Notes under the pieces: generated by a model
What the model saw: only the letters and a program-made list of their open reading frames with translations
Databases searched by the model: none
What the model was told of the DNA's origin: nothing
From: Petrotoga sp. 9PWA.NaAc.5.4
Lineage (GTDB): Bacteria > Thermotogota > Thermotogae > Petrotogales > Petrotogaceae
Assembly: GCF_002895485.1 (NCBI RefSeq)
Contig: NZ_AZRK01000014.1
Span: forward strand, 10,149 to 49,386
Length of the DNA: 39,238 bases
Direction of reading: 5' to 3'
Made by a program: the position numbers and the translations under genes
Shown: positions 3,060 to 39,238 of the stretch, piece after piece
Numbering within the stretch: the stretch's first letter is position 1
How the letters are laid out: every line of letters begins with the position of its first letter

Positions 3060-4759
<1,700 letters not shown>

Positions 4760-8132: not shown

Positions 8133-10757
8133 ATGAAAATTGGTTTTAAAATATACTCTTTATTAGGATTTTTTGTTATTATCAGTTCTATTTTTTATGC
8201 AGTAAACATCACTTTAATTTCTCCTCAAAATGGTTCAAATAACGTTGATATCAGAAGTTCTTTCAGATGGCAAGTAAGCCAAGGAGGGGATTTTAGATAT
8301 AACGTTTATATATCTGAAGATGAAAATATAGATCAAAATGATCTAAAGATTCAAGATATTTTTTCAACTTTTTACACCGGTGATGTGCTTAAACCCAACA
8401 CTACTTACTACTGGAAAGTCGAAGCTGTAGATACTCAAGGGAATATATATTCCAGCCCAGTTGCAAAATTTACAACAAGAAGCCTACGACCTGGAGATGC
8501 ATATATTATTTTTTTTGAAAACTATAAAAAAATAATACCTGTTGCGTTGAATTATGTAGGTGTTACTGAGAATAGTTTAATTCTCTTTAATGAAGATAAA
8601 ACCGTTAATAAAACGATTAATTTAGAAGAAAATATTGTAAATACAATTTCTGATAATAAAAATATATTTGTTGCAACTGAAAGAACTACATATATTTACG
8701 ATAAACATCTAAACAAGATAGAACTTCAGATTAATGACAAGATAAAAGACTTTGCTGGAGAGAATGTTGTTTATAGTGAAAACTCAATTTATGTTTTGAG
8801 TGATGATTATAAGATAATTAAGCAAATTGAATTTCAGAACATTGTAAAAGCATTGGTAAATAATGGAAAATTATACGTATTAACAAAAAATTCTCTATTA
8901 GAAGTAGATAACAACTTTAATGTATCAAATAGCTTTAAAATCAACCAGTCACCTCAAGATTTTATTTTTATAGAGAATGAATCAGAACATATAATAGTTA
9001 TTTTAACTAATGAAAACATGGTTGCACTCAACTTAGATTTTCAAAAAGTTGCAGAAGAAAAATTCCCATTATTAACTCGAAATTATCAAAGAAAGTTATA
9101 CGGATACTACGATAAAATAGTGCTTCTTTCTAACAAAAAAAGTTTAAATTTCTATGGAACCGACCTTAGTTTAATAAAATCATTAACTTTTGACGAAAAC
9201 TTTGAATTTTTTGTCCCCATAAATGAAAAAAGATTTGTTTTATTAGGAGACAGCATAAGGGCTTTTGAAATGGATGGGAACTTGATTTGGAGTTATGCTA
9301 CCTTAAATAAATTAGAGATTATATCTGAACCCTTAGTATATGATAAAGGATTAATAGTAGGAATAAAAGATTTTATAACAAGATACTTAGTGCTTTACGA
9401 TAATTTTGATCAGAAACACTATTATTATAAACAATCAGAAGAAAAACTGTTTTATGAACTTGAAACTGTTGAAGAACCTCATGCTGAAATAACAGCCCCT
9501 TCAACACCTTCAACACCAGTAACCGTAACTTTTGAATTTCAAGACGAAATATTTATAGAAGAGCCGATAACACCACCACAACAAGATACTACATTATCAG
9601 AAATTCCTCTAATTGTTGAAGAAGAACCATTTCCACCTTATGAACCAGAAGAACCAGAAGAACCAGAATTTATCAAAATCTTTGAAAAGCCATATAATGA
9701 ATATATTTATGGTGCAAAGTTTGATGGAGAATACTTTTATCTTTATGGTTATGAAGATATTCACGGGTGGGATGCAAAAATATGGAAAGTAGATAAATTT
9801 GGTAACATAATATTAGAAAAGTCTTTGCAAGGGCAAGACACCGATTTCTTTAGAGATGCAATAATCACAAACGATGCAAGTTCACTTCAGACAAATATTA
9901 TTGCTGTAGGAGATACATTATCATACGGATTAAACGGGAACGCATATATCGTTTCTTTAACAGATGATGGTTCGATAAATTACCAAATAAACTATGGAGA
10001 TATAGGCAGGGATAACGGAATAAAGATCTTGCAAATAGATGAAGAAAGTTTTGCAATTGCCGGGAACATATTCATAAATAAAAAATTATCAGATATATTT
10101 GTATCAAAATATCTAATTGACGGTACAAGGATCTGGACATACAATTTTGGCGGAAACGATGTTGAGATTGCTATAGACATAAAAAATACTCAAGATCAAG
10201 GGTTCATCGTTGTTGGTGCCACAAGGTCTTTTGGAGCAGGTGGCTTTGACGTTTATATATTGAAACTTGATTATTATGGAAACATGAAATGGCAATATGT
10301 TCATGGTGATAGTTACGATAACATTCCCGTTGGTTCTATACAGAAAGGTAAAGTACACTATATTGTTTATGAGACCTCTTCTAACCCAAGAAAATTAGGT
10401 GTTTTGGAAGTAGATGAATTAAATGGATTTAAATCTTCTTTTGAATATACTGTTAATGAAGCGGGAAAACTACTCGGAGTTTCACAAATTGAAGATAAAT
10501 ATTTTGCTTATGGATACAAAGTAGAAAATAACAAAAAAATAGGTGTTATATATGAAATTAATTTGAAAGATCAGTCATTTAATGAAGTCAACACTTACAA
10601 ATTTGACAGTAATTTTGAAATAATGGGATTAATAAAACCAGATAATCAAGATTATTTTTATATTTTTGGAAACATAGAGAACAATAAACGTCAAAACATT
10701 TGCTTTATTAAAGTTCATGAAGATAATTTTTTTAACAGAGAAAATGTTGATCAATAA
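8133..10757 (+). CDS. Exported protein with FN3-like domain and beta-propeller repeats
   Basis: An 874-residue protein starting with a Sec signal peptide (K at 2 and 6, hydrophobic 8-22, cleavage probably after FYA). A fibronectin-III-like domain follows (about 25-115, with PNTTYYWKVEAVD). Next is a blade-rich beta-propeller region (about 120-440), then a Pro/Glu linker with EEPEEPEF (about 450-510). A second propeller follows (about 510-860) with repeats such as GFDVYILKLDYYGNMKWQ, typical of secreted outer-surface propellers. The ATG at 8133 is preferred since the GTG at 8127 overlaps the Shine-Dalgarno GAGGTG. It is probably located in the periplasm or toga space; the function is unknown. 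Confidence 0.85.
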   Translation: MKIGFKIYSLLGFFVIISSIFYAVNITLISPQNGSNNVDIRSSFRWQVSQGGDFRYNVYISEDENIDQNDLKIQDIFSTFYTGDVLKPNTTYYWKVEAVDTQGNIYSSPVAKFTTRSLRPGDAYIIFFENYKKIIPVALNYVGVTENSLILFNEDKTVNKTINLEENIVNTISDNKNIFVATERTTYIYDKHLNKIELQINDKIKDFAGENVVYSENSIYVLSDDYKIIKQIEFQNIVKALVNNGKLYVLTKNSLLEVDNNFNVSNSFKINQSPQDFIFIENESEHIIVILTNENMVALNLDFQKVAEEKFPLLTRNYQRKLYGYYDKIVLLSNKKSLNFYGTDLSLIKSLTFDENFEFFVPINEKRFVLLGDSIRAFEMDGNLIWSYATLNKLEIISEPLVYDKGLIVGIKDFITRYLVLYDNFDQKHYYYKQSEEKLFYELETVEEPHAEITAPSTPSTPVTVTFEFQDEIFIEEPITPPQQDTTLSEIPLIVEEEPFPPYEPEEPEEPEFIKIFEKPYNEYIYGAKFDGEYFYLYGYEDIHGWDAKIWKVDKFGNIILEKSLQGQDTDFFRDAIITNDASSLQTNIIAVGDTLSYGLNGNAYIVSLTDDGSINYQINYGDIGRDNGIKILQIDEESFAIAGNIFINKKLSDIFVSKYLIDGTRIWTYNFGGNDVEIAIDIKNTQDQGFIVVGATRSFGAGGFDVYILKLDYYGNMKWQYVHGDSYDNIPVGSIQKGKVHYIVYETSSNPRKLGVLEVDELNGFKSSFEYTVNEAGKLLGVSQIEDKYFAYGYKVENNKKIGVIYEINLKDQSFNEVNTYKFDSNFEIMGLIKPDNQDYFYIFGNIENNKRQNICFIKVHEDNFFNRENVDQ

Positions 10758-36859: not shown

Positions 36860-37912
36860 CTAAGAGTTAAAAATATTTTCCCAAAGCTCTCTACATCGTT
36901 CTTCTGAAAATTCTCTTCCTATAATCTCTCTATTTTTAGCTTTTAAAGATTCATCAATGTATACAAACTCTTCAAAGCTTAATTTATCTATACTATAGGT
37001 ATCATACACAGTTATGCCGATTCTTTCAAAATAATCCCAAGTCGTCACATCTTTTCTTATATACACCTTTTTGCCTAAATATAACAGTGTTTTTATATTC
37101 CCTAGGGCTTGTTGCCTATTATGATTAAAAACAGCAATATCAACCGAATTTAAAATTTTAGCATATTCTGCTGGGGGTAAAAAGTCAACCAGAGGTTTAA
37201 ATTTATCTCCGTACAACCTCTTACCATTTTCAATAACTTCCTTAGCCCATTCTTTTTCTCCGTAAGATAGAGGTATAATGATTTCAATATCCTCATCTTT
37301 GAACTTTAATAATTTATTTAAAACTTCAATATGATTATTTGTCGGATTGGCAGAATTTCCCACTAAGATTGTTATAGTACTTTTATCTTTGTAATCACCA
37401 TCAAAATCTAGATTCTCATAGACTATAGGGCTGGGATAAAATGCTTTCATATGTCGCGCCTTTGTAGGATACCACTTTCTTGCTAATTCATATTCTCCTT
37501 CGTTATTTGTAATTATTACCTTTATATTTTTAATTATAATCTTTCTCATAAATTCACCTAGATTTGATCTAAAGCTTTTTACCCTAGTCTCATGATAATA
37601 TAGATCTCCTCCCCAAATAACCCAGTAACACTTTTTTAAGATGCCAAGCCTGATAAAAAGAGCAGGTACAATTTCTGTAAAAATACCGTGCAAGATTATT
37701 TTATCAGCTATAAACATCTCTTTATGAAAGAAAAACATGTCTTTGCTCTTTCTCTTAACAAAGAAAACGTTCTCTTGCTTGTTAACCTTAAAACTGTTAC
37801 CTTCACACACTACCAAAAAATCGTGTTCTTCCTTTGGAAAATATTTGTTCATAAAATCTATAAATCTCACTGTGTAGACAGAATTAGGTAACAAGTGCAC
37901 TATCTTCTTCAT
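36860..37912 (-). CDS. wecF: WecF-like TDP-Fuc4NAc transferase (GT56)
   Basis: A 350-residue glycosyltransferase of family 56. WecF transfers 4-acetamido-4,6-dideoxygalactose (Fuc4NAc) from its dTDP donor to lipid-linked GlcNAc-ManNAcA in enterobacterial common antigen. TILVGNSANPTNNHIEVLNK, IIPLSYGEKEWAKEVIENGK, FLPPAEYAKILNSVDIAVFN and HNRQQALGNIKTLLYLGKKV are the conserved blocks. It is the first gene of the minus-strand cluster and is 12 bases ahead of rfbA. A family member with another acceptor is possible. Confidence 0.85.
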   Translation of the reverse strand: MKKIVHLLPNSVYTVRFIDFMNKYFPKEEHDFLVVCEGNSFKVNKQENVFFVKRKSKDMFFFHKEMFIADKIILHGIFTEIVPALFIRLGILKKCYWVIWGGDLYYHETRVKSFRSNLGEFMRKIIIKNIKVIITNNEGEYELARKWYPTKARHMKAFYPSPIVYENLDFDGDYKDKSTITILVGNSANPTNNHIEVLNKLLKFKDEDIEIIIPLSYGEKEWAKEVIENGKRLYGDKFKPLVDFLPPAEYAKILNSVDIAVFNHNRQQALGNIKTLLYLGKKVYIRKDVTTWDYFERIGITVYDTYSIDKLSFEEFVYIDESLKAKNREIIGREFSEERCRELWENIFNS

Positions 37913-37974: not shown

Positions 37975-38074
37975 ACCTAACTCAAACTATTTTGAAAGTC
38001 AATTTAGTTTCTAAAAGCTCTCCTAAAAAATATCAAAGAATCTAAAAAAATCAAAAGTGAAAGTACCCGAAAAA

Positions 38075-38158
38075 TTAAGACACCTGTCTTAAAAAATAAG
38101 ACAGAACTGTATGAAATTTTCAGACAAAACTGTCTTAAAAAATAGGACATTATATAAT
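38075..38158. promoter_or_regulatory. Palindromic half-site array with -10 box
   Basis: TAAGACA-CC-TGTCTTA-AAAAA-TAAGACA (38076-38103) and CAGACA-AAAC-TGTCTTA-AAAAA-TAGGACA (38121-38149) are two similar clusters of three alternating half-sites, 46 bp apart. TATAAT (38153-38158) lies directly after, for a plus-strand transcript. The layout fits a multi-dimer operator or, alternatively, iterons of a replication origin. Confidence 0.6.
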
Positions 38159-38185
38159 ACATAATACAAGAAACATATATTATTT

Positions 38186-38203
38186 TCAGAAAAATTTTTC
38201 TGA
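38186..38203. repeat. Perfect 18-bp palindrome
   Basis: TCAGAAAAATTTTTCTGA is fully self-complementary. It lies between the half-site array and the winged-helix gene. As RNA it could form a weak hairpin; as DNA, a protein site. Confidence 0.5.
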
Positions 38204-38314
38204 TTTTATCTCACACAAGATTTCCAAAAAAATTGCAAAAACAGACAAATATTTTGCGGATATTAATTATAGAGAAAAGAAAATATCTTATACAAAAAAC
38301 TATGAGGTGAAATT

Positions 38315-38686
38315 ATGAATATTTTCGATCTAGTAAACATTTTCTTTGAAGAAGACAAAAAGAGTAAACTTCCTTCTTCTTCAGCAAAGTTATATTTTTT
38401 CTTAATTTATCAAGCGAACAAACTATTTTGGGAAGGCCCTTTAATACTCTCAATTAGACATTTATCAAATCAACTAAAACTTGACAAAAACACAGTTGTA
38501 AAATCCTTAAAAGAATTATACAAAAGAAAACTCATAACCTACTACCCATCAGAATACTTTCAAAAAGCTAATCATACTTCTATTTGGTTTCCACAATCCA
38601 GTCTAAAGACAAAAAATAATAAAGAGGTGAAAAATCTTGTTAAATACACAACCACAAAAGAAAACAAATACTCCAACTATTTCTAA
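38315..38686 (+). CDS. Winged-helix replication-type DNA-binding protein
   Basis: A 123-residue protein. Residues 18-80 look like a winged helix: SSSAKLYFFLIYQANKLFWE, then LSIRHLSNQLKLDKNTVVKS as the recognition helix-turn-helix, then a wing with LYKRKLITYYPS. This pattern is common in replication organiser proteins (DnaD-like or phage initiator) and in plasmid initiators. The C-terminus is charged. The Shine-Dalgarno GAGGTGA is well spaced from the ATG. It overlaps the helicase-loader gene by 50 bases, supporting a replication role; a transcription regulator is the alternative. Confidence 0.7.
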   Translation: MNIFDLVNIFFEEDKKSKLPSSSAKLYFFLIYQANKLFWEGPLILSIRHLSNQLKLDKNTVVKSLKELYKRKLITYYPSEYFQKANHTSIWFPQSSLKTKNNKEVKNLVKYTTTKENKYSNYF

Positions 38687-39238
38687 TAACAATTGCCCAT
38701 GTACAAAACCATACAACTGCCTTACCAACGGAATAATTGATCATGCATTTTGCAACAAATACGCAAATTACTTAAAAGCCATCAGTTACTTCAACGATGT
38801 TGTGCCAAAAATATATTCTGACGTTTCTTTCACTAATTTCGTTATAAAAAACGCGATTATAAAAAAAGCAGTGTATAAAAGCGTCTACTTTGTAGATCAC
38901 AAATTGTGGCAAAAAGGCAGTGGCTTGATTCTATATGGAGGTTGCGGCACAGGAAAATCACGTTTAGGTTACACCATCCTAAAAGAAATAGCAATTATGG
39001 GAGGAATAATAGGAGTAATAGACGTATTACATGATTTTGAAACATTTGAGCAAGCAGACGAAGCTGTAAAAACAGCATTAAAATCAGATATAATCTTTAT
39101 CGACGATCTTGGAGCAAAAGAGTACAAATGGATAGCAGACAAAATTAGAATAATAATAGATGAGATCAACAGAAGCCAAAAAAGTCTAATAATATCAACA
39201 AACCTAAACCCACAAGAATTAATAAACTCATTAGAACT
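38637..39238 (+). CDS. DnaC/DnaI-like helicase loader ATPase, 3' end cut by the window
   Basis: AAA+ ATPase that would load the replicative helicase. It starts at TTG 38637, six bases after GAGGTGA (38624-38630), and runs open for 200 residues to the window edge. Walker A is GGCGTGKS (101-108), Walker B is IIFIDDLGA (152-160) and sensor 1 is IISTN (185-189). A cysteine/histidine group at the N-terminus (C20, C22, C28, H36, C39) resembles the zinc module of Bacillus DnaI. IstB-type transposition proteins share the ATPase, but the winged-helix neighbour favours replication. Confidence 0.85.
   Translation, partial: MLNTQPQKKTNTPTISNNNCPCTKPYNCLTNGIIDHAFCNKYANYLKAISYFNDVVPKIYSDVSFTNFVIKNAIIKKAVYKSVYFVDHKLWQKGSGLILYGGCGTGKSRLGYTILKEIAIMGGIIGVIDVLHDFETFEQADEAVKTALKSDIIFIDDLGAKEYKWIADKIRIIIDEINRSQKSLIISTNLNPQELINSLE

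Follow-up and report, generated by a model that had tools for sequence, protein, structure and literature searches.

The DNA considered here (the window) is a stretch of 39,238 nucleotides from Petrotoga sp. 9PWA.NaAc.5.4, the source genome G000, and corresponds to positions 10149-49386 of its contig C14, with its right edge at the contig end. Close to that edge, a tandem array of 19-bp inverted repeats, or dyads, lies between a divergent glycosyltransferase gene and two genes encoding a winged-helix protein and a helicase loader. An earlier note on this stretch had proposed either a cooperative operator or the iterons of a replication origin, belonging to an integrated element or to the chromosome. 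The following features make up the locus.

36860-37912, minus strand: divergent GT56-like glycosyltransferase gene, with which the neighbouring surface-glycan operon begins
38064-38082, plus strand: iteron unit 0, TACCCGAAAAATTAAGACA, with a decayed left half (G001 and G002 hold the intact TGTCTGAAAAATTAAGACA)
38085-38103, plus strand: iteron unit 1, the perfect dyad TGTCTTA-AAAAA-TAAGACA
38108-38126, plus strand: iteron unit 2, TGTATGA-AATTT-TCAGACA (TGTATGAAATTTTCAGACA)
38131-38149, plus strand: iteron unit 3, TGTCTTA-AAAAA-TAGGACA
38150-38314, no strand: AT-rich stretch of about 20% GC, a candidate unwinding region and the 5' leader of the winged-helix gene
38153-38158, plus strand: TATAAT, right after the last unit, which may be a -10 box or the point where the melting region begins
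38186-38203, no strand: 18-bp perfect palindrome TCAGAAAAATTTTTCTGA, judged incidental
38253-38265, plus strand: conserved box TTTGCGGATATTA, retained in copies of three genera, including most gene-less (solo) arrays
38315-38686, plus strand: gene for the 123-aa winged-helix protein, a homologue of phage O-like replication initiators that has their N-terminal domain only
38637-39238, plus strand: gene for a DnaC/DnaI-type AAA+ helicase loader with a TTG start, truncated where the contig stops (the protein of relatives has 241 aa)

Array, flanking elements, and gene pair

The repeats in the window form a single tandem array at 38064-38149 that consists of four 19-bp dyads with a pitch of 21-23 bp. 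The TGTCTTA/TAAGACA half-sites had been read as two clusters of three, 46 bp apart. The half-sites themselves were recovered at four positions (38076-38082, 38085-38091, 38097-38103, and 38131-38137), but the clusters were not: the 46 bp are 2 x 23, the distance of units 1 and 3, and the array was taken for two clusters because unit 2 in the middle was overlooked. The 7-mer TGTCTTA alone was dropped as a motif, since it occurs in the window at chance level (8 found versus 7.7 expected). The meaningful unit is the 19-bp dyad TGTMTKA-N5-TMRGACA, that is, TGT(C/A)T(T/G)A-N5-T(A/C)(A/G)GACA. Three perfect dyads of this kind start at 38085, 38108, and 38131, and 100 shuffles of the window gave no strict match. 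The A-tract cores of all four dyads are in phase, with the dyads spaced at about two helical turns.

The elements between the array and the winged-helix gene differ in how well they are conserved. TATAAT keeps its position in all copies from genera g1 and g2 and from G017, and genus g6 has TATAAG close behind the last unit. The -10 box claimed for this site exists as a hexamer, but no good sigma-70 -35 partner was found for it. The description of the region as very AT-rich holds in composition (20% GC for 38150-38315 compared with a window mean of 31%), and the DNA is softer than average, yet the softest stretch of the window lies elsewhere. The palindrome is perfect, as had been noted, but chance alone would give about 0.45 such palindromes in a window and this one is missing from relatives that retain the array, and it was rejected as a functional part. 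The conserved box, TTTGC(A/G)GATA(T/C)TA, is found 3' of the array in most copies and is inverted and upstream of the array in g6; once it precedes the ribosome-binding site of another gene. Besides the window, its occurrences include L141:1430, L141:1693, and L160:2808. It was not found in 400 kb of G002 sampled elsewhere. An Rfam scan of the region gave no match.

The predicted order of a winged-helix gene followed by a DnaC-like helicase-loader gene that runs to the window end was borne out, and the two genes overlap by 50 bp. An AlphaFold2 (AF2) model of the 123-aa protein is a winged helix with a mean predicted local distance difference test score (pLDDT) of 73, which is low past residue 95. 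Direct matches of this protein to phage replication proteins in PHROG are weak. A relative of it was found in an annotated phage collection: the N-terminus of the Marinitoga camini virus 2 (MCV2) initiator is 38% identical over 98 aa (pairwise E 1e-16), and this initiator matches phrog_345, 'replication initiation O-like', with E 2.6e-31. No relatives were found among viral contigs. The coding sequence for the viral initiator in KP836356 (L187:3923-4720) has an annotated start at 4088, about 55 codons late; with the upstream ATG at 3923 as its start, it regains the winged-helix domain.

The loader matches phrog_50 DnaC-like (E 1.4e-26) and Aquifex DnaC (3ec2, E 6.6e-7). Its Walker A (GGxGTGK) and Walker B (FIDDLG) motifs are invariant across copies, and a CxC-x5-C-x10-C cluster is conserved in the N-terminus. 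Within and between g1 and g2, the ratio of nonsynonymous to synonymous substitution rates (dN/dS) is 0.11-0.20 for the loader and mostly 0.20-0.28 for the winged-helix protein, and both genes are therefore under purifying selection. The synonymous distance between C14 and G002 is 0.44 in the winged-helix gene versus 1.2 in the loader gene, and gene conversion could possibly account for the lower value.

Conserved copies in the family

The distribution survey covered 21 genomes of the family. Nine full copies, counting C14 and a second one on contig C32 of the source genome, are present in eight genomes of three genera of related heat-loving bacteria, and all nine adjoin surface-polysaccharide clusters. 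Beyond the source genome, the family has an intact loader in G001 and G002 (genus g2) and in G012-G016 (genus g6). The full copies have open frames and intact ATPase motifs. On C32, the duplicated region begins just upstream of the start of the divergent glycosyltransferase gene and includes the loader; it has about 96% DNA identity to C14 and adjoins another glycosyltransferase gene and a flippase gene. Contigs C14 and C32 stop at the identical base within the loader, as is expected when an assembly runs into a repeat.

Across all copies, the arrays contain 3-6 units, and the distance from one unit to the next is 21, 22, or 23 bp in 57 of 58 cases. The array lies upstream of the winged-helix gene in every full copy that retains one; G016_A has lost its upstream array. 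In g6, the half-sites change to TGGGTCA, TGGGACA, or TGACCCA with no change in the 19-bp unit length, pitch, or placement, as would be expected from co-evolution with the cognate protein.

A degenerate 19-mer pattern that covers both half-site types matches almost exclusively within the arrays of the cassette-bearing genera g1, g2, and g6. It has no match in g3, g4, g5, and g7 and one isolated match in g8, and a reversed control pattern gives 0-2 matches per genome. The exceptions to the arrangement in arrays are an isolated match, in G019, and an array in G012 that has eroded. This near-confinement of the 19-mers to arrays argues against a common regulator motif. We accordingly rejected a global regulator with single sites before many unrelated genes, since the sites occur in arrays and genera that lack the gene pair are at control level. 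The earlier note had held that sites upstream of unrelated genes would speak against its proposals; such sites are mostly absent, and the solo arrays that do exist at other loci are copies of a whole array.

Resemblance to phage and plasmid origins

In the lambda origin, an O dimer binds to each of the 19-bp inverted repeats, which are nearly perfect and adjoin an AT-rich region, and O, P, and DnaB then make up the loading complex (PMC5043065). Lambda has four iterons and Shiga toxin (Stx) phages have six (PMC7466680). The Petrotoga locus shares with these origins a row of iterons that are imperfect 19-bp inverted repeats (4 or 6 in the phages; PMC5043065, PMC7466680), as well as the order of a winged-helix initiator gene and then an overlapping or adjacent helicase-loader gene. 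Its AT-rich stretch beside the iterons is a candidate counterpart of the phage unwinding region. It differs from lambda in that its initiator is reduced to the DNA-binding domain, its loader is of the DnaC/DnaI AAA+ type rather than P, and the module has no phage genes around it and occurs as several chromosomal copies plus solo arrays.

A similar comparison can be made with Marinitoga camini virus 2 (KP836356), whose initiator has the homologous winged-helix N-terminus described above. Directly after the winged-helix part, the viral gene carries a 7-5-7 dyad, TGGTTCA-AAAAA-TGAACCT, with an A5 core, and further GAACCAG repeats. The viral repeats, however, are inside the gene, and their additional copies are 12-bp direct repeats. 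The initiator of the virus is also full-length, with a C-terminal domain, the gene after it encodes a DnaB-type helicase and not a loader, and MCV2 is an intact virus. In other Thermotogota phage initiators, 7-5-7 dyads are at chance level, perhaps with the exception of the G003 prophage, and behind the winged-helix part most of these initiators have direct repeats of 12 bp.

Other replicons share parts of this organization. Iteron plasmids such as P1, F, RK2, and pSC101 likewise have phased iterons near the rep promoter, an AT-rich region, and a self-encoded initiator, but in Petrotoga every unit is a dyad and there is neither a plasmid backbone nor a Rep_3-type protein. Chromosomal islands (phage-inducible chromosomal islands and Staphylococcus aureus pathogenicity islands, PICI/SaPI; PICI-like elements, PLE; and staphylococcal cassette chromosome mec, SCCmec) also carry an origin-plus-initiator module with a helicase-related protein in the chromosome. 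In contrast to them, no integrase or recombinase, primase-helicase, or island ends were recognised in the Petrotoga loci read, and the module stays at one syntenic locus across genera.

Taken together, these comparisons indicate that the site is probably the iteron array of a phage-derived replication-initiation module of the lambda O/P type, which has lost its phage and is retained in the chromosome beside surface-glycan genes. The earlier suggestion of an integrated-element origin composed of iterons, AT-rich region, initiator, and loader is well supported by comparison, because the array is specific to the gene pair across genera, the layout is lambda-like, and the winged-helix protein matches an O-like initiator. 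In this module, dimers of the 123-aa protein would bind the four phased dyads and bend the A-tract DNA of the array, and the AT-rich DNA that separates the array from the winged-helix gene would then melt. The DnaC-like loader could subsequently place the host DnaB helicase at the melted stretch. In addition, binding of the winged-helix protein at the last unit probably restrains transcription of the module itself, because this unit abuts the promoter-like TATAAT.

Several observations weigh against a phage-derived initiation module. No helicase, primase, integrase, or attachment (att)-like site was found near the module. The 123-aa protein stops after the winged helix and has no Phg_2220_C or equivalent C-terminal domain, which in phage initiators makes the contact to the loader or helicase. 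Lambda has its iterons within the initiator gene, but here they precede it, and a coarse GC-skew sample of G002 lacks a replication signature at the module. The existence of deleted and solo copies implies that many copies are not selected as a whole. As to a surrounding prophage, structural genes, a terminase, and an integrase were not found around the module, and its neighbours in G000, G001, G002, and G012-G016 are surface-glycan genes. A search of the open-access literature found no description of such a module, which is no proof that none exists.

If the winged-helix protein now only represses its own operon, and perhaps the divergent glycan operon, then the array would be an operator that has lost its origin function. 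The position of the array between divergent genes and against a -10-like box is compatible with this explanation, as are the retention of the DNA-binding domain alone, a solo array that precedes cobO in G013, and a predicted fold like that of MarR/CodY winged helices. These fold matches are weak and generic, however (E about 0.01). A role as an operator alone would also leave unexplained why a helicase loader is retained under purifying selection, and four to six phased 19-bp dyads far exceed the needs of one promoter. Moreover, the solo array at the polC 3' end faces the end of that gene and can therefore have no promoter role for polC. We consider the loss of origin function in favor of repression unlikely, although the cooperative operator of the earlier note survives in part, in that the unit abutting the -10-like box may also mediate autoregulation.

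Bacterial chromosomes are thought to rely on one DnaA-dependent origin. It is conceivable, though we would not expect it, that the phage-derived module has been domesticated as an extra origin that is active in the chromosome. A minimal initiator-loader pair would then fire from its own iterons at the surface-glycan locus and raise local copy number or favor the duplication of glycan genes and their exchange, and the solo arrays would serve as additional sites for starts or for titration. If true, the locus would represent a natural second, DnaA-independent start site, or a phage module given a new use. The switch of half-sites from TGTCTTA to TGGGTCA at unchanged geometry provides an initiator/iteron pair for probing recognition and co-evolution, and with two genes the module is small enough for in vitro reconstitution.

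Solo arrays, deleted copies, and neighbouring genes

In addition to the full copies, internally deleted copies occur in G001 (L043/L044), G016 (L040:15164), and G017 (L045, C61, and C49). Gene-less arrays are found at the polC 3' end in G001 and G002, at several places in g6, and on contig C15 of the source genome. This third copy in G000 has a five-unit array and part of the leader only, and it lies about 660 bp upstream of dnaA.

The proximity of the C15 array to dnaA might suggest that the module is the chromosomal replication origin (oriC) of the host. A dnaA-upstream array is missing, however, in G001, G002, G014, and G017, and four genera of the family lack any array site. With dnaA at position 1, the complete genome of G002 has the module at 1.074 Mb, about 1.07 Mb away. 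GC skew in G002 was sampled in 20 x 20 kb (a 20% sample), and this coarse and noisy profile, which follows gene strand, has no minimum at the module. Because the skew minimum is absent and relatives lack the dnaA-upstream array, it is very improbable that the module is the main origin of the host, and this part of the earlier note is not supported.

The deleted copies (L043/L044, L045, L040, and G017_C61) and the gene-less arrays (G000_C15, the polC site, and several in g6) could instead be signs of a decaying remnant, in which case the module would be the non-functional debris of a phage or plasmid replicon that had integrated, and recombination would have spread it. The decayed half of one iteron in the window and a leftover in another family (L176) fit this picture. 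On the other hand, nine glycan-locus copies of the cassette, found in eight genomes and three genera, are undamaged, with uninterrupted reading frames, preserved ATPase motifs, and dN/dS values that are low. The other phage genes are gone from its surroundings, which is unusual for simple decay. Debris is consequently a doubtful explanation for the module.

Multiple copies, deletion derivatives, and the L176 remnant suggest spread of the module. L176 is in G071, which belongs to another family of the class, and it contains a loader remnant beside the tetratricopeptide repeat (TPR)-glycosyltransferase gene that follows the loader in G001, G002, and G017. To judge from this shared adjacency, the remnant may point to horizontal transfer of the loader/TPR-glycosyltransferase stretch. 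Spread would be explained if the module belonged to a live mobile element (an integrated plasmid, satellite, or island) with unrecognised ends and integrase and with the glycan cluster as cargo. There are several copies per genome, C14 and C32 are about 96% identical to each other versus 86% to the orthologous G002 locus, and the remnant in the other family adjoins the same glycosyltransferase gene. Nevertheless, no integrase, relaxase, tRNA target, att site, or direct target repeat was recognised in the loci read, among which the window copy is missing its right side because the contig stops there. The window has no tRNA genes, and no clean target duplication was found at the module copies.

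The candidate empty sites are equivocal. At cobO, an array is present in G013 and absent in G012 and G014, and gain and loss are indistinguishable because the 'empty' genomes carry element-like sequence next to the box. The G015/G016 site has no ortholog in other g6 genomes, and the polC site of G001 and G002 has no alignable empty counterpart in G017. The synteny with the glycan cluster that is kept across genera is more like vertical inheritance, and in the plasmid collection the loader family occurs on one distant plasmid only (Persephonella, 33% identity). We therefore regard a live mobile element as quite improbable.

Some genes near the copies have features of their own. In g6, the gene after the loader encodes an Eco57I-like restriction-modification methylase of about 1150 aa (PF07669, E 3.9e-31; L037:4956-8333, with equivalents in G012, G013, G015, and G016), and because of this order the g6 module may belong to a defence-bearing operon. 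Loci L037-L042 of this genus also have coding genes with in-frame interspersed repeats (e.g., L037:4956-8333 and 8996-9490). The repeat peptides read 'NSLKRPEGGSRKDSLTA' or, in another frame, 'ETASRQIRKTASSAPKGVQGK' and resemble protein-coding palindromic elements in Rickettsia. Each of the loci has 3-7 occurrences of a simple signature for these repeats, and the window has none. Genes like those for Rpn-type recombination-promoting nucleases adjoin several arrays or cassettes (G000:C15:1-170, L078, L043:1283-2254, L041:13219, and L042:2822). Near a copy in G001 with an internally deleted loader, there is likely an array of clustered regularly interspaced short palindromic repeats (CRISPR) with a cas6-like gene (G001:C33:6100-7500, L080).
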